Shown here: piece by piece, positions 18,557 through 50,997 of the stretch
Layout of the letters: every line of letters begins with the position of its first letter
Numbering within the stretch: the stretch's first letter is position 1
Assembly: GCA_022704305.1 (NCBI GenBank)
Contig: JAKJGQ010000003.1
Span: forward strand, 1 to 52,914
DNA length: 52,914 nt
Reading direction: 5' to 3'
Origin: Thermotogae bacterium
GTDB lineage: Bacteria; Thermotogota; Thermotogae; Petrotogales; Petrotogaceae
Position numbers and translations under genes: made by a program
The notes under the pieces: generated by a model
What the model saw: only the letters and a program-made list of their open reading frames with translations
The model's database searches: none
What the model was told of the DNA's origin: nothing

Positions 18557-19264
18557 CTACCATCCCAGATAGTTGTCTTTTACTTCTTTCATTTCAAGTA
18601 CCTGATGCGGAGAACCATGAGCAATTATGTTACCCTTGTGTACAACATAAAGTTCATCAACTACCTGAGCTATCTCATCGACATTGTGATCGGTTACTAT
18701 AACCGCTATACCCTCACTGGAAAGCTTTTTTATCATTCCCTGGATATCCTTGACAGTTATTGGATCTATTCCTACAAACGGTTCATCAAGAAGTATAACC
18801 TTTGGTTCGATAAGAAGAGTCCGGGCAAACTCGAGCCGTCTTTTTTCTCCGCCGGATAAAGAGTCAGCATTTTGGAGCAAAAGAGAGTCTATTCCGAAAT
18901 CTTTTGAAATCTTACGGATTTTTTCATCCTTGCTTTTGATTTTCAGGATATCTGCTATCATGTAAAGATTATCTTTAACCGTTACATTTCTGAATACCGA
19001 AGGTTCCTGCGGAAGATAACCCATCCCCAAAAGGGCCCTTTGATATATGGGCAGATGGGTGATATCCTTATCTTTAAGGAATACCTTGCCTTTATTTGGT
19101 ACCACCAGTCCCAGAACAGTCTTAAATAAAGTAGTCTTACCGGCACCATTTGGTCCTAGTATGCCGGTAATCCTGCCTTCTTCAGCAGTAAAGTCAACAT
19201 GGTTGAGAACAGTTTTTCTGCCGTATTTTTTGAGAATACTGCTGCATTTTATTACAGGCTCCAT
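18557..19264 (-). CDS. lptB: LPS-export-type ABC transporter ATPase (LptB-like)
   Basis: 235 residues, a single ABC ATPase domain: Walker A GPNGAGKTTLF, Q-loop YLPQEPSVFRNVTV, signature LSGGEKRRLEFAR, Walker B VILLDEPFVGIDP, H-loop VTDHNV. The DEPFVGIDPITV and EPSVFR stretches match the LptB subfamily, which drives LPS transport with LptF/LptG. No lptF, lptG, lptC or lptA is in the window, and whether this organism makes LPS is uncertain, so the exported substrate could be another envelope lipid. The ATG is one base after the skp stop (TAACATG). Confidence 0.85.
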   Translation of the reverse strand: MEPVIKCSSILKKYGRKTVLNHVDFTAEEGRITGILGPNGAGKTTLFKTVLGLVVPNKGKVFLKDKDITHLPIYQRALLGMGYLPQEPSVFRNVTVKDNLYMIADILKIKSKDEKIRKISKDFGIDSLLLQNADSLSGGEKRRLEFARTLLIEPKVILLDEPFVGIDPITVKDIQGMIKKLSSEGIAVIVTDHNVDEIAQVVDELYVVHKGNIIAHGSPHQVLEMKEVKDNYLGW

Positions 19265-19265
19265 G

Positions 19266-19745
19266 TTATTTGTTTACAAGAGTAATCACAGATTCGGTTA
19301 TATCAACGTTTTTGCTCGCATAAACCACACTCTGCTCAAACAGGACAAGATCGTAGCCATTGGTCTGGGCATACTCGGTGATCTTGGTTTTTATTTCAGT
19401 AAGGAGAGCATTCGTTTTAGCTGTGTACTCATTCTGAAGAGCTGTCATATACTCCTGAGCTTTGGTCTGTATATCCTGATATTTTTTCTGGAGGACATCT
19501 GTCGCTGCTTTGGAATCTTGGAGCTTCTTAAGATCCGCCTGATCCTTGTCTATCTTCGACTGATAGTACTGGAGATCATTTTTATACTTGTCTTCCATAT
19601 CTTTCCATTTAATAGAGTTTTCGGTTACCTTCTCTATATCGACGAAAGCTATCTTGACGGTCTGGGTATTATTGGCGGCCGCAAAAGATATAACCGCAAA
19701 TACTACAAGTATCGCTGCCAAAGAGAAAAAAAGAGTCTTTTTCAC
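19266..19745 (-). CDS. skp: Periplasmic chaperone Skp/OmpH-like
   Basis: About 159 residues from GTG 19745; the in-frame GTG at 19754 sits inside the SD GGAGGTG and is rejected. A signal peptide (about 1-24, ending FAAA) is followed by the OmpH pattern IAFVDIEKVTENS, a long Lys/Gln-rich coiled coil (about 50-125) and the terminal strand GYDLVLFEQSVVYASKNVDIT. Skp trimers hold unfolded outer-membrane proteins in the periplasm. With lptB next to it, this supports an outer membrane. First gene of the run, behind a strong promoter. Confidence 0.88.
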   Translation of the reverse strand: MKKTLFFSLAAILVVFAVISFAAANNTQTVKIAFVDIEKVTENSIKWKDMEDKYKNDLQYYQSKIDKDQADLKKLQDSKAATDVLQKKYQDIQTKAQEYMTALQNEYTAKTNALLTEIKTKITEYAQTNGYDLVLFEQSVVYASKNVDITESVITLVNK

Positions 19746-19782
19746 AAAAAACACCTCCGGTATTTATGTTTGAGCTTATAAC

Positions 19783-19811
19783 ATTATACTCTAAAACTGC
19801 ACTTTTTTCAA
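19783..19811 (-). promoter_or_regulatory. Strong promoter for skp-lptB-gltX2-LDT-AEC
   Basis: On the minus strand, TTGAAA (19806-19811), a 17-bp spacer and a perfect TATAAT (19783-19788), giving a leader of about 30 nt before the skp start. Confidence 0.82.
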
Positions 19812-19923
19812 TTACAGACTCTAAAAAAATTAATATATCAGGTGATACGAAAATTTACATTGCGTTTTTCAATAGCAAATTATCAGCAAATATATCTTTA
19901 CATTTGGCTGTTACAATTATACC

Positions 19924-20006
19924 AGAAACATGTAATACCCCTATCCCCCTTGAGTATAAATCCCCCACCCTTTTGGCGGAGCCGATGATATGGTTCCGTT
20001 TTTTTT
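19924..20006 (+). ncRNA. Putative C-rich small RNA A
   Basis: An intrinsic terminator stands here with no gene in front of it on the plus strand. Upstream are an extended -10-like TGTTACAAT (19909-19917), then AATAC and the C-rich segment CCCTATCCCCCTTGAG (19939-19954), and a second C-run CCCCCACCC. Promoter-like bases, AATAC, CTATCCCCCT and GAG recur in the same order at 41356-41395, also followed by a terminator. CCCTATCCCCC is complementary to the SD of the DUF4912 gene 240 bp downstream. Known C-rich sRNAs of other bacteria (RsaE type) block SDs in this way. Start and expression are inferred. Confidence 0.45.
19977..20006 (+). terminator. Orphan intrinsic terminator (end of putative sRNA A)
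   Basis: CGGAGCC / GGTTCCG stem (one G-U pair) with loop GATGATAT, directly followed by eight T. No T-run follows on the minus strand, so it acts on plus-strand transcripts only. Confidence 0.8.
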
Positions 20007-20114
20007 ATATATATGCACAATCTCAAAACATTAATTTTATTCAGTAACAAATTATAACAGCTTTTTTGAGGTTATTAGCAAAGTATATATGCAGTTATTT
20101 TTAAAAAACTTTAT

Positions 20115-20143
20115 TTTATATTAAGAAAACTCCTTTTTATGAT
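20115..20143 (+). promoter_or_regulatory. Promoter for the DUF4912-GH57 operon
   Basis: TTTATA (20115-20120), 17 bp, TATGAT (20138-20143). The same -10 context (TTTTATGATAAAATA) recurs before the foldase gene at 22638. The leader of about 40 nt contains the SD AAGGGGGGATAGGG. Confidence 0.55.
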
Positions 20144-20189
20144 AAAATAGCAGTGTCAGGAAAAAAGTTTTAAAAGGGGGGATAGGGAA

Positions 20190-20981
20190 ATGGAGCTGGA
20201 TAAAAATCTAATTCAGATGTTGAAAAACGAGGAACCTACCATCCAGGACCTTAGGAATATCGCAAAATCTCTAGGCCTTAAGCTTAGGAGGTCAATGAAA
20301 AAAAGAGACATAGTAAAGGAGATCCGAAGGGCCCTTTCTCAGGAGAACTATTCCGCAGTAACTTCAGACCGTCTTCAAAACAATAAAAGAGCAGACGTAT
20401 CGTCAGGCAGGCTTTCCAGAACTTTAACAAAAAAATCCAACGACAGCACAGAACTATGCGAAACCTACAACAATGACAGACTGGTTCTTATGGTGGTTAA
20501 CCCTTTCTGGGTTTACACTTACTGGGATTTTTCAAAAGAGCTTTCCTTTAATCTTAAAAATTCTCCTCATGCCGATTCCTTTTTTATGAGGGTATACGAT
20601 ATTACAAATATCATTTTCAACGGCAGTAACGCAAACAGAATACTTCAGCAGAGCATAAGGATACTTGAAAAGTCCAGTGCATACTTTAATGTTCCTATGC
20701 CCGACGCAGATTATATTTCGGAAATAGGATACTATGAAAACAACAGTTTTGTAGCAGTTCTAAAATCCAATATAGTACATACTCCGCCGTCTTCTCCAAG
20801 AAACGTTAAGTTTCAAAAATGGGTAAGTCTCAAAGACAAAACTTTCAAACAGATAATTTTGGACGAAAATTACCGTCCTCTGATAACCGTAATTGAGAAA
20901 CTTTCCGGTCCGGAGAATGCTTTTTCCAGTGGTTCTGCCTTCAGAACCACAGAAATCTTCAAATCAGGAGGTATAAAATGA
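20190..20981 (+). CDS. DUF4912 protein with N-terminal Rho-N/SAP-like domain
   Basis: 263 residues. Residues about 14-50 (TIQDLRNIAKSLGLKLRRSM, then KKRDIVKEI) look like a Rho-N/SAP helix-extended-loop-helix nucleic-acid-binding motif. Residues about 95-210 match DUF4912 (LVLMVVNPFWVYTYWDFSKE). DUF4912 genes are regularly found next to GH57 glucan enzymes, as here, where the next ATG overlaps the stop (ATGA), so a role in glycogen or alpha-glucan metabolism is inferred, perhaps carbohydrate binding or control. The SD is unusually long and G-rich and is complementary to putative sRNA A. Confidence 0.82.
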   Translation: MELDKNLIQMLKNEEPTIQDLRNIAKSLGLKLRRSMKKRDIVKEIRRALSQENYSAVTSDRLQNNKRADVSSGRLSRTLTKKSNDSTELCETYNNDRLVLMVVNPFWVYTYWDFSKELSFNLKNSPHADSFFMRVYDITNIIFNGSNANRILQQSIRILEKSSAYFNVPMPDADYISEIGYYENNSFVAVLKSNIVHTPPSSPRNVKFQKWVSLKDKTFKQIILDENYRPLITVIEKLSGPENAFSSGSAFRTTEIFKSGGIK

Positions 20982-22582
20982 AGAATCCTAAGGGTTACTT
21001 CTCTCTGATGCTTCATGCCCATCTTCCATACGTCCGGCATCCGGATTTTGAAGAGTTTCTGGAGGAAAGATGGCTTTTTGAGGCTATAACAGAAACGTAT
21101 ATTCCACTGATAAAAATGTTTAGGAATCTAGAAAGAGATAAAGTGCAGTTTCATCTTACTATGAGTATAACCCCGCCTCTTATGGAGATGTTGGGATCAG
21201 AAGATCTCAACCAGAAGTATTCCAGGCACATGGAAAAACTTATAGAGCTGTGTGAAAAAGAAGTTGTAAGGACAAAAGATGAGGATCTGCGTAAGCACAA
21301 GATGGCTAAATTTTATTTAGCTGATTTTAAGGAAACTTATGTATTATTTTATCATGATTATAATCAGAGATTACTTGATGCGTTCAGAGAGTACCAGGAT
21401 AAAGGTTTTATAGAAATAGTTACCTGTAATGGCACACACGGATTTCTCCCCTTTATGCAGCAGTATCCTTCCGCGGTAAGGGCGCAGCTGGATGCAGGGG
21501 TAAAAACTTATGAGCGCTTTATGAAATGTAGTCCTAAGGGAATATGGCTGGCTGAATGTGCTTACTTCCCGGGAGCCGAAAAGTATCTTTCTGAATATGG
21601 CATAGAGTATTTTTTTACTGACTCACACGCCCTGTGGTTTGCAGATGAGCCCGCACACTATGGAGTATATAGACCTGTAATAACTAATGAAGGGGTTTTT
21701 GCTTTCGCACGTGATCCTGAGTCAAGTGAACAGGTATGGAGCGCAACTGTTGGATATCCTGGAGATTTCAGATACAGAGAGTTCTACAGGGATATAGGCT
21801 TTGACAGGGAAGTTGATTACATAAAGCCATATATAGACAGAAGCGGAGTAAGATGTAATGTCGGAATAAAGTATCATAAAATTTCTGGAAAAGGTGTGGA
21901 GATTGACCGAAAGGACTATTACGATATAGACGAAGCCAAACAGGCAGTAAAGGAGCATGCAGCTGATTTTCTCGATAAAAAAATAGAACAGGCCAAAAGG
22001 CTTTACGGTATCTTTGACGGAGAAGTGCCGCTTATAACTGCTCCTTTTGATGCAGAGCTTTTCGGTCACTGGTGGTATGAAGGGCCGTTATTCCTCGAAG
22101 AGCTATTCAGAGCCATGAGCGCTCAGCAAACAGTTAAGCCTGCAACTCCCACATCATTTTTGGAAAAAATAGATTCAGTACAGGTTACAACCCCATGTCA
22201 GTCAACGTGGGGAGCCAACGGTTATAACGAAGTATGGTTAAATGGCTCTAATGACTGGATATACAGACATCTTCACCAGGCAACCGAAATTATGGTATGC
22301 TGTGCCAAAAAATATGAGCAGCCCGACAGTTTGAAACGAAGAGTACTGAATCAGATGGCAAGAGAACTTCTTCTTGCACAGTCAAGCGACTGGGCATTTA
22401 TAATGACGACAGGCACCACCGTGGAGTATGCTGTTTCCAGAACCAAAAACCATATAAAAAGGTTTTTTGATCTCAAGAGTATGCTTGAAGCAGATACTGT
22501 GGATGAAAACCTTTTAAAGTACATGGAATGGATAGATAAAATCTTTGAGGATATTGATTTTACAGTATATTCAAAGGATTAA
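20978..22582 (+). CDS. GH57 family 1,4-alpha-glucan branching enzyme / AmyC-type glucanotransferase
   Basis: 534 residues, as in T. maritima AmyC and archaeal GH57 branching enzymes. The first region is FSLMLHAHLPYVRHP. GIWLAECAYFPGAEKYL holds the probable catalytic Glu (near residue 192). APFDAELFGHWWYEGP holds the probable acid/base Asp (near 357). The C-terminal DUF1957-type helical region contains STWGANGYNEVW and HQATEIM. Such enzymes make alpha-1,6 branches or rearrange glucans in the cytoplasm. Start chosen at ATG 20978 with SD GGAGGT, overlapping the DUF4912 stop. Confidence 0.9.
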   Translation: MKNPKGYFSLMLHAHLPYVRHPDFEEFLEERWLFEAITETYIPLIKMFRNLERDKVQFHLTMSITPPLMEMLGSEDLNQKYSRHMEKLIELCEKEVVRTKDEDLRKHKMAKFYLADFKETYVLFYHDYNQRLLDAFREYQDKGFIEIVTCNGTHGFLPFMQQYPSAVRAQLDAGVKTYERFMKCSPKGIWLAECAYFPGAEKYLSEYGIEYFFTDSHALWFADEPAHYGVYRPVITNEGVFAFARDPESSEQVWSATVGYPGDFRYREFYRDIGFDREVDYIKPYIDRSGVRCNVGIKYHKISGKGVEIDRKDYYDIDEAKQAVKEHAADFLDKKIEQAKRLYGIFDGEVPLITAPFDAELFGHWWYEGPLFLEELFRAMSAQQTVKPATPTSFLEKIDSVQVTTPCQSTWGANGYNEVWLNGSNDWIYRHLHQATEIMVCCAKKYEQPDSLKRRVLNQMARELLLAQSSDWAFIMTTGTTVEYAVSRTKNHIKRFFDLKSMLEADTVDENLLKYMEWIDKIFEDIDFTVYSKD

Positions 22583-40313: not shown

Positions 40314-40859
40314 ATGCCAAAGACGATAGAAGACGTTGAAAATTTAATACTGAAAAATGCCTTTGAACTTTTAAAAACATATGGGTATCACAAGCTTAAT
40401 ATGCGTGAGATAGCAAAAAAATCCAATATTGCAACCGGAACAATCTATAATTACTTTCCAACTAAAGATGAGCTTATGATAAGTCTTATAAGATTTTACT
40501 GGAAAGATTACGGAGACAAGATGGATGCTGCTTTTTCTTCTGAAGAAGATTTTTTGGTGAAAATGCACAGGATATTTGAGATAATTGATACTTTTATAAG
40601 AACTTTCGAAGGATTTATACCGGAGTATGCAAAAAAAGGTAATGAAAAACCGGAAGGCAGAGTACAAAAGTTTCTTAACGAGTTCCGAAAAGGTATAAAA
40701 AATGCTCTTGATATGGATAAGACGATAAGTATCGTTCCTAGCATCAAAACAGAGGAGCTCTCAGCCTTTATAGCTGCTAATATGATAAGCATAGCCTTAT
40801 ATCGTCTTTATACTTATGAAAACTTTGAAAAAATAGTAAGAATAATTATTTTGAAGTAA
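40314..40859 (+). CDS. TetR family transcriptional regulator
   Basis: 181 residues. The N-terminal helix-turn-helix (about 8-55) has the family pattern AFELLKTYGYHKLNMREIAK followed by KSNIATGTIYNYFPTKDEL. The ligand-binding domain is diverged. It probably binds the palindrome just upstream and controls itself and the small membrane protein gene 40 bp downstream. The ligand is unknown. SD GTGAGGTGA, ATG 40314. Confidence 0.9.
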   Translation: MPKTIEDVENLILKNAFELLKTYGYHKLNMREIAKKSNIATGTIYNYFPTKDELMISLIRFYWKDYGDKMDAAFSSEEDFLVKMHRIFEIIDTFIRTFEGFIPEYAKKGNEKPEGRVQKFLNEFRKGIKNALDMDKTISIVPSIKTEELSAFIAANMISIALYRLYTYENFEKIVRIIILK

Positions 40860-41332: not shown

Positions 41333-41361
41333 TTGAATAGTAATAATGATGATGTTATCAT
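41333..41361 (+). promoter_or_regulatory. Promoter for putative small RNA B
   Basis: TTGAAT (41333-41338), 17 bp, TATCAT (41356-41361) on plus, inside the noncoding gap between convergent genes. The -10 surroundings resemble those of putative sRNA A. Confidence 0.45.
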
Positions 41362-41367
41362 TATAAA

Positions 41368-41440
41368 CAGATAGGAAATACTTCTATCCCCCTGAGATAG
41401 TTTAAAACCATTATCGGATCCTTGAGGATCCGACTTTTTT
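41368..41440 (+). ncRNA. Putative C-rich small RNA B
   Basis: About 73 nt between a promoter-like element and an intrinsic terminator, in the gap between hsmA-like and MMPL genes. It contains AATAC at 41377, CTATCCCCCT (41384-41393) and GAG, in the same order as in putative sRNA A, and can form GATAG/CTATC stem-loops around the C-run. There is no reading frame. If real, the C-rich loop would pair with G-rich SDs. It could instead be only the 3' UTR of the hsmA-like mRNA, but the shared segment argues for a defined RNA. Confidence 0.45.
41414..41440 (+). terminator. Terminator of putative sRNA B / hsmA-like transcript
   Basis: TCGGATCC / GGATCCGA, loop TTGA, then C and six T. The T-run touches the MMPL stop codon on the opposite strand. 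Confidence 0.88.
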
Positions 41441-49585: not shown

Positions 49586-50449
49586 ATGGATAAAAAAATG
49601 ATTTACAATGAATATATTCTTTCTCTAAGTCCTTCTATTGAGGATGAGGTAACAAGTGCGCTTGTAATGAAAGATTTTCTTGAATTTTATGTGGAGTATG
49701 AAGTAAGCAGCAATCTTACTACGCTTAAGTTTTATACTTCCCTTAATGATCCCAGGCAGGATATTCTTCAGATGCTCACAGGATTTTATGGTCTTGAGAT
49801 ACTCCATCATGAAGTTGTTGAGGAAAAGGACTGGCTTGCAGAATGGATGAAAACCTTAAAGCCTTTTGAGTATGTGCCGGGGGTGTGGATAAATCCTTTT
49901 GCCGAAAAGCAGTTTGAACCCAAGGAAGGCATTGTTCTTAAATTGATTCCAGGAACAGCCTTTGGAACAGGCCACCATGAAACGACAAGGCTCATCGGCA
50001 CAGTTCTGTCAAATATGGACTGCCGAGGGGCAAGTGTTCTTGATGTGGGGACAGGCACGGGGATACTGGCTATTCTTGCGAAAAAAAAGGGGGCGGGATA
50101 CACTCTTGCTCTTGATTATGATCCGCTTGCTGTGGAAAAAGCCAAGGAAAGTATAGAGCTTAACGATGTTCATGTGCAGGTCAGGCAGTCGGATCTTCTT
50201 AAGAACGTTGAAGAAGGTGAGAAATTTGATATTGTTACTGCCAATATTGTTGCGGAGATAATAGTTATGCTTATGCAGGATCCAAAGTTTGAAACTGTTA
50301 TGCAGGATAACGGATATTTTATATGTAGCGGTATAATAAAAGAAAAGGAAAAGATGGTAATAGACGAGGCTATGAAACATGAATTACAGATAATAGAGGT
50401 GGTTGAAGACGGATCATGGGCAGCTATAGTATTTCAGAAAACAGTATAA
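49586..50449 (+). CDS. prmA: Ribosomal protein L11 methyltransferase
   Basis: About 287 residues from ATG 49586, five bases after AGGAGG. An N-terminal ferredoxin-like domain (about 1-60) is followed by WLAEWMKTLKPF, PGTAFGTGHHETTRL, the SAM motif VLDVGTGTGILAILAKKKG, ALDYDPLAVEKAKE and TANIVAEIIVML, all PrmA hallmarks. It trimethylates ribosomal protein L11. The end overlaps the DUF501 gene by 34 nt. Confidence 0.94.
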   Translation: MDKKMIYNEYILSLSPSIEDEVTSALVMKDFLEFYVEYEVSSNLTTLKFYTSLNDPRQDILQMLTGFYGLEILHHEVVEEKDWLAEWMKTLKPFEYVPGVWINPFAEKQFEPKEGIVLKLIPGTAFGTGHHETTRLIGTVLSNMDCRGASVLDVGTGTGILAILAKKKGAGYTLALDYDPLAVEKAKESIELNDVHVQVRQSDLLKNVEEGEKFDIVTANIVAEIIVMLMQDPKFETVMQDNGYFICSGIIKEKEKMVIDEAMKHELQIIEVVEDGSWAAIVFQKTV

Positions 50450-50997
50450 AAATAATTGAAACTCTTATAGGAAGAGAGATCTCCAACTGTATTGAAGTTG
50501 TAAAGACATGTCCTTACGGCATTCCGCACGGTATTCCGCACGGTATTCCGCACGGTATTCCGCACGGTATACCGCAGGTTATAAAAAGTTATCCTCTCAA
50601 GGACAACAAGCCTTTTCCCACACTCTACTGGCTGGTCTGTCCATATCTTTGTGAAGAAGTTGCCAAGCTCGAATCAAAAGGCATGATTACTTATTTTGAA
50701 GAGCTTATTGAAAAAAATTCAGAGTTCAAGAAAAAGATGTTTATGGCTCACTGTACGGAAATAAGGGTGCGTCTTGAGATTTTGGGGGAAGCAATCACAG
50801 ATCTTTCACCTTCCATGCAGAGTAAGATGAGGAACACAGGAATAGGCGGAATAACGGATTTCTCAAAGGTAAAGTGTCTCCATCTTCATCTAGCGTCTTT
50901 TCTTGGCGGACAGGATAATCCGGTCGGCGCAGAAGTTTCAAAGATGATAGACAGTTGCTGCTGCAGCAATTTTGCATGCGAAAAGTATATTAGATAG
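50416..50997 (+). CDS. DUF501 family protein with expanded GIPH repeat
   Basis: 193 residues. ATG 50416 is the only in-frame ATG, inside the end of prmA. DUF501 pattern: IGREISNCIEVVKTCPYG, then IPQVIKSYPLKDNKPFPTLYWLVCPYL, and a Cys/His-rich C-terminus (CLHLHLASFLGG, CCCSNFACE) that could bind metal. Between PYG and PQVI lies GIPH repeated four times plus GIPQ, absent in usual members, where a single G-x-P is found. Function unknown. DUF501 genes often stand near ppx/gppA in other bacteria; here it is between prmA and uvrC. Confidence 0.8.
   Translation: MGSYSISENSIKIIETLIGREISNCIEVVKTCPYGIPHGIPHGIPHGIPHGIPQVIKSYPLKDNKPFPTLYWLVCPYLCEEVAKLESKGMITYFEELIEKNSEFKKKMFMAHCTEIRVRLEILGEAITDLSPSMQSKMRNTGIGGITDFSKVKCLHLHLASFLGGQDNPVGAEVSKMIDSCCCSNFACEKYIR
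50518..50577 (+). repeat. Five 12-bp tandem repeats in the DUF501 gene
   Basis: GGTATTCCGCAC units: the first starts GGC, units 2-4 are identical, the fifth is GGTATACCGCAG. They encode GIPH x4 and GIPQ. The near-identity at the DNA level points to recent slippage expansion that keeps the frame. Confidence 0.95.

Follow-up and report, generated by a model that had tools for sequence, protein, structure and literature searches.

Conservation of small RNAs (sRNAs) does not usually reach beyond the genus or family. Thermotogota is a deep-branching, largely thermophilic phylum, and Thermotoga maritima has reportedly been described as having few non-coding RNAs (ncRNAs). RsaE/RoxS, from Staphylococcus and Bacillus, is conserved between genera and can base-pair through its C-rich regions with Shine-Dalgarno sequences that are G-rich (PMC4409812). 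For T. maritima, the accessible part of Latif et al. (2013; PMC3636130) gives 12-13 unnamed putative ncRNAs obtained by RNA-seq, without definable structure. A search of the open-access literature retrieved no sRNA family described for Thermotogota. Likewise, Rfam 15 at the gathering score gave no match at the two loci described here, A and B, or at 12 loci across the phylum; two tRNAs were the only hits in the window, which is the whole stretch of 52,914 nucleotides that was analysed.

Locus A, as read directly from the sequence (TGTTACAATTATACCAGAAACATGTAATACCCCTATCCCCCTTGAG), comprises an extended −10 followed by AGAAACATGTAATACCCCTATCCCCCTTGAGTATAAATCCCCCACCC and a terminator. The 5′ end given for its RNA is a prediction from the position of the −10. 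The features of the locus and its divergent neighbours are:

18557-19264, minus strand: lptB-like ABC ATPase (Pfam), divergent neighbour of locus A
19266-19754, minus strand: ompH/skp-like gene (Pfam), divergent neighbour of locus A
19863..20015, plus strand: block of 153 nt identical in genome G001 (alignment), with the upstream region, promoter, sRNA A and terminator
19909..19917, plus strand: predicted extended −10, TG-T-TACAAT (sequence; same placement relative to the RNA core in relatives)
19924..20006, plus strand: small RNA A (covariance models: R1, 70.1 bits, E 5.3e-15; R2, 59.3 bits)
19938..19949, plus strand: C-rich core CCCCTATCCCCC of sRNA A (92-100% per column, 71 distinct copies)
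19975..20006, plus strand: intrinsic terminator of sRNA A, a 10-pair stem plus 8 T (helix covaries in the family)

The stem of the terminator spans 19975-20000, and the eight T to which the initial annotation had drawn attention are at 19999-20006. G001 is the sole genome from the same genus; the first mismatches with it outside the block occur at 19862 and 20016-20018, both flanks having diverged. The gap without a plus-strand gene, originally put at 444 bp, measures about 435 nt (from the ompH start at 19754 to 20189) and does contain a plus-strand ORF of 93 aa (19766-20047), the only one of at least 80 aa there, which overlaps locus A. Nevertheless, this ORF was ruled out as a gene because G001 has a frameshift directly behind its ATG.

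Locus B (TGTTATCATTATAAACAGATAGGAAATACTTCTATCCCCCTGAG), also read directly from the sequence, shows TTGAAT and TATCAT separated by 17 nt, with an extended TG, and then AGATAGGAAATACTTCTATCCCCCTGAGATAG and a terminator. The 5′ end of its RNA is again a prediction:

41333..41361, plus strand: predicted promoter, TTGAAT, 17 nt, TATCAT, extended TG (sequence)
41368..41440, plus strand: small RNA B (R1, 74.8 bits; R2, 55.5 bits; DNA matches in relatives from CTATCCCCCTGAGATA on)
41384..41392, plus strand: C-rich core CTATCCCCC of sRNA B (over-represented in the window; family alignment)
41414..41440, plus strand: intrinsic terminator of sRNA B, stem 41414-41433 and then TTTTTT

The two loci had been picked out as look-alikes from the sequence alone, and they do have in common a promoter-like −10, an intrinsic terminator and, between these, the C-rich core CTATCCCCCT; they are ancient paralogs. 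A DNA search with B found matches running from CTATCCCCCTGAGATA into the terminator in several Petrotogaceae and in one Mesotoga-type genome (inferred family assignment). The absence of B from G001 is uninformative, since the contig there breaks off within the MMPL gene adjoining B. A perfect inverted repeat, ATAATGAT...ATCATTAT (41343-41364), overlaps the promoter of locus B and is possibly a repressor site; a TetR-family gene (40314-40859) lies 0.5 kb upstream of this repeat. Elsewhere in the window, the predicted protein encoded at 50416-50997 carries GIPH as a tandem repeat close to the N-terminus (GIPHGIPHGIPHGIPHGIP).

The initial annotation had proposed a search of the relatives with a covariance model made from the two loci. 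Model R1, built from six sequences (A, B and relatives), matched in 92 of the 103 Thermotogota genomes, and the refined model R2, built from 74 copies, in 95 of them at E 0.01 or better, the E-values of both models being rough. Named records with a copy include, among others, Thermotoga, Pseudothermotoga, Fervidobacterium, Thermosipho and Mesotoga. In Petrotoga-like genomes, R1 matches scoring under ca. 25 bits fell in coding-looking sequence and were rejected as chance. An exact-core scan of a GTDB-based collection returned 18 stretches, 17 of Thermotogota type and one, from Anaerolineales, that was rejected as a chance match because it sits in an ORF of 1263 aa; no isolate genomes were among these matches, which limits the negative outside Thermotogota. 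One of the 17 comes from a MAG labelled Bacillota (L150, JAMOAB010000007.1) and is a copy of the Petrotogaceae form; the label or the content of this bin is probably wrong. The earlier proposal that C-rich regulatory RNAs form a family not yet described is well supported by the further copies and the conserved C-rich segment, whose absence the initial annotation had named among its grounds for refutation, and by the covarying terminator and the lack of an Rfam match, except for its restriction to one lineage, since the family spans the phylum. It is probably a previously undescribed regulator common to all of Thermotogota.

Among 71 distinct copies, each column of the core CCCCTATCCC was 92-100% conserved, and all ten pairs of the terminator stem showed compensatory changes. 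The covariation score for the whole structure was 0.443, versus 0.162 for shuffles and at most 0.122 in slid controls. An invariant core next to a compensatory terminator marks a small RNA whose unchanging core stays unpaired, and a conserved seed beside a variable, covarying stem is likewise a trait of trans-acting sRNAs that associate with Hfq. A UAUC/GAUA hairpin around the C-rich loop was paired in 89% of cells and is weakly supported because its 5′ arm hardly varies; a diverged form in two genomes (G039 and G046) retains a similar hairpin of different sequence. Type I copies leave the core unpaired, and type II copies (L118, L242, L244, L245, L263-L268, L271, L281 and L282) present it in the loop of a hairpin. 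In the type II form, found in some genomes, CTATCCCCCCTTGGATAG is enclosed by an outer stem whose sequence varies with the group (GAGUGC/GCACUC, AAGUG/CACUU or GGACAGC/GCUGCC type), with CUAUCC/GGAUAG as the inner stem. Most families have further C-runs besides the core. The Thermotoga form (ACCCCCCTATCCCCCTTGAGATACACCCCCCACGGCYTTGGCGGGC...terminator) shares a CCCCCAC segment with A, and B resembles the Petrotoga form. In a Fervidobacterium-type copy (L276, G067:C1:1944513-1944590) the whole C-rich part is kept and unrelated sequence replaces the terminator after TTTATG, as if the copy had been interrupted. A small mRNA (dual-function peptide) was rejected: there is no conserved reading frame, length changes of 1 and 2 nt occur inside the core region and the ORF over A is frameshifted in G001.

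The motif CTATCCCCC has three occurrences in the window, where 0.33 are expected, and is present in only four places of the 2.04-Mb assembly: in sRNA A, in sRNA B, as the complement of the ribosome-binding site of a DUF4912 gene, and inside ffh. The motif is short and terminators are common, as would suit two unrelated terminators with a fortuitous C-rich similarity. However, the window count was reached in 0 of 100 shuffles and matches across the phylum combine the conserved core with a covarying stem, so that this explanation, to which we give a negligible probability, is refuted by conservation. Judged by these sequence comparisons, A and B are almost certainly genes of short non-coding RNAs in a family that spans Thermotogota.

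The divergent ompH-lptB pair found beside locus A also adjoins A-type copies in six other genomes (G005, G006, G007, G011, G013 and G015), and locus B has an MMPL gene as a common neighbour with Marinitoga-like genomes. Genes for MnmE or a radical-SAM protein (names given on the basis of sequence and not of a family scan), for a PHO4-family protein, and for a ClpP-like protease with RNase HII adjoin other copies; the T. maritima copy lies between the PHO4-family gene and an operon of the ClpP-like SDH protease and rnhB. This variation between families indicates that the RNA is an independent unit, and its gene is intergenic, with its own promoter-like elements and intrinsic terminator, as is characteristic of trans-acting sRNAs. 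Additionally, (G/T)TAACA was present in the promoter spacer of 20 out of 35 representatives, versus 4.1 ± 1.9 in shuffled sequences. It stands directly downstream of the −35 across families (e.g., L063, L064, L074, L079, L085, L119 and L132). The element suggests that the RNA may itself be regulated, through a common regulator or operator. Rex was rejected as this common regulator, since the operator of T. maritima Rex used for crystallization, ATTTGAGAAATTTATCACAAAA (PMC8836258), is unlike TAACA.

The sole target suggested by the sequence comparisons is a putative one, the DUF4912/GH57 branching-enzyme operon, whose first gene lies ca. 180 bp downstream of sRNA A:

20177..20187, plus strand: candidate target site GGGGGATAGGG in the DUF4912 ribosome-binding site, exact 11-nt complement of CCCTATCCCCC (19939-19949)
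20190..20981, plus strand: candidate target gene, Rho_N-like and DUF4912 protein (Pfam)
20978-22582: GH57 branching enzyme, after the DUF4912 gene (Pfam)

The ribosome-binding site is GGGGGGATAGGG, and its 11-nt complementarity to CCCTATCCCCC is unchanged in G001. By duplex energy for A, the DUF4912 gene ranked second in the window; shuffled RNAs did equally well or better at this gene in 62 of 1000 cases for A and in 6 of 1000 for B, so that duplex energy alone lends weak support to this target. Gene 3597, another candidate target within the window, was discarded because the complement is not conserved in G001. The same arrangement might reflect a leader or attenuator acting in cis, the C-rich segment of A pairing with the DUF4912 ribosome-binding site in a read-through transcript. 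In G000 (the genome of the window), G001 and G006, the DUF4912 gene follows A in the same orientation (in the last of these, likewise with GH57 behind it), and the exact 11-nt inverted repeat occurs in G000 and G001. We nevertheless consider this improbable: the terminator of A is intact, B faces a convergent gene, and no one gene recurs downstream of the copies in the same orientation. Because neighbouring genes differ or converge in most families, regulation in cis fails to account for the family as a whole.

Support for pairing did not extend beyond this site. Over ca. 800 kb, less than half, of one Thermotoga genome, anti-Shine-Dalgarno pairing at the translation starts of 758 genes was no better than with shuffled RNAs, and exact complements of the RNA were not enriched. 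Across the 103 genomes, the 11-mer AGGGGGATAGG fell mostly in the RNA genes and, outside them, was about as frequent as a reversed control. The blocking of Shine-Dalgarno sequences in the manner of RsaE, envisaged in the initial annotation, thus retains one exact match of 11 nt to a neighbouring ribosome-binding site, and a general anti-Shine-Dalgarno role is not supported by these comparisons.

In the Thermotoga genome G092 (C1), IS200/IS605-like terminal hairpins at 143478, 1007239 and 1143909 include AGGGGGATAG(G), which is complementary to the core of the sRNA; the first two are ca. 60 nt upstream of tnpA-like starts. Control of IS200/IS605-type transposons might then be the main function of the RNA, its core being complementary to a hairpin at the element end upstream of tnpA, as illustrated by the two tnpA-like genes of the Thermotoga sample with AGGGGGATAGG ca. 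60 nt before the start, within the terminal hairpin ATCCCCCTTCAGGGGGATAGG. This seems very unlikely, because the core complement in the genome of the window is confined to the two sRNAs, one ribosome-binding site and ffh, and the non-RNA matches in the other genera examined fall in ordinary genes.

A gene for Hfq was present in 98 of the 103 genomes, in keeping with an sRNA that associates with Hfq. G000 and G001 have two copies (in G000, C111:11502-11693 and C189:11763-11951), and all other Petrotogaceae searched have one. One genus of family f5 (G047-G049) has three to four hfq genes, along with at least two copies of the sRNA.

By their sequence, A and B are almost certainly paralogous genes of an intergenic sRNA family of ca. 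75-85 nt, with a sigma-70-like promoter of their own, an invariant unpaired core (CCCCUAUCCCCCUU), often a weak UAUC/GAUA hairpin around it, and a covarying terminator with a U-tail. Somewhat more probably than otherwise, their RNAs are held by Hfq and pair with trans-encoded mRNAs; to the pairing mechanism in trans, taken for the family, we give an even chance or slightly better. The sRNA would be transcribed on its own, possibly regulated through the TAACA element in its promoter spacer, and Hfq would hold it by the U-rich 3′ end. Its C-runs would pair with G-rich stretches in mRNAs encoded in trans, in some cases at least across the ribosome-binding site, which in the genus of the window may be that of the DUF4912-GH57 branching-enzyme mRNA, and pairing there would lower translation.

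CsrB-type RNAs titrate CsrA, and the main rival to pairing in trans is a decoy or scaffold of this kind, in which the C-runs bind an RNA-binding protein that the RNA titrates. The core is conserved almost to the letter throughout the phylum, more strictly than pairing with mRNAs demands of many RNAs, and genome-wide complementarity to translation starts does not exceed chance; both speak for protein binding. Still, a partner protein binding C-runs is neither known nor was found here, a core that is unpaired (type I) or in a loop (type II) suits pairing as well, and an exactly complementary ribosome-binding site adjoins A; we therefore regard a decoy or scaffold as rather unlikely.

A bolder reading, to which we give somewhat less than even probability, is an ancestral sRNA family that defines the phylum, with a single-stranded type I, a double-stem type II and lineage-specific duplications, acting as a global post-transcriptional regulator with a fixed partner. 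If this were true, the near-invariant core would reflect that partner, either a protein or a conserved RNA, and not a changing set of mRNA targets. A core of ca. 10 nt kept nearly letter for letter across Thermotogota, plus a recurring promoter element, offers a ready way into high-temperature Hfq biology in the phylum, its model T. maritima included. The usual GGAGG Shine-Dalgarno sequence is not complementary to CCCCC, and the family is also a test of how C-rich RNAs choose their targets under this condition.

Compared with known systems, the family is like RsaE/RoxS in that the RNA is small, intergenic and C-rich in several regions, but differs in sequence, structure and phylum, in matching no Rfam family at the gathering score and in the lack of support for general anti-Shine-Dalgarno complementarity. 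Relaxed Rfam scans yielded only resemblances far below threshold, none of them to RsaE. C- or CU-rich unpaired stretches and a terminator are shared with suhB/mmgR (RF00519), NmsRb (RF02877) and Yfr1 (RF01116), which the Thermotoga copy weakly resembled in cmscan; however, its scores were far under gathering (18.0 bits versus 41, 19.2 versus 52 and 12.9 versus 38, respectively), and the family is not a member of any of them. Finally, the T. maritima copy could be among the 12-13 putative ncRNAs of Latif et al. (2013), which the accessible part of that report presents as transcripts of a single genome, with no mention of a family or of a C-rich core (PMC3636130).
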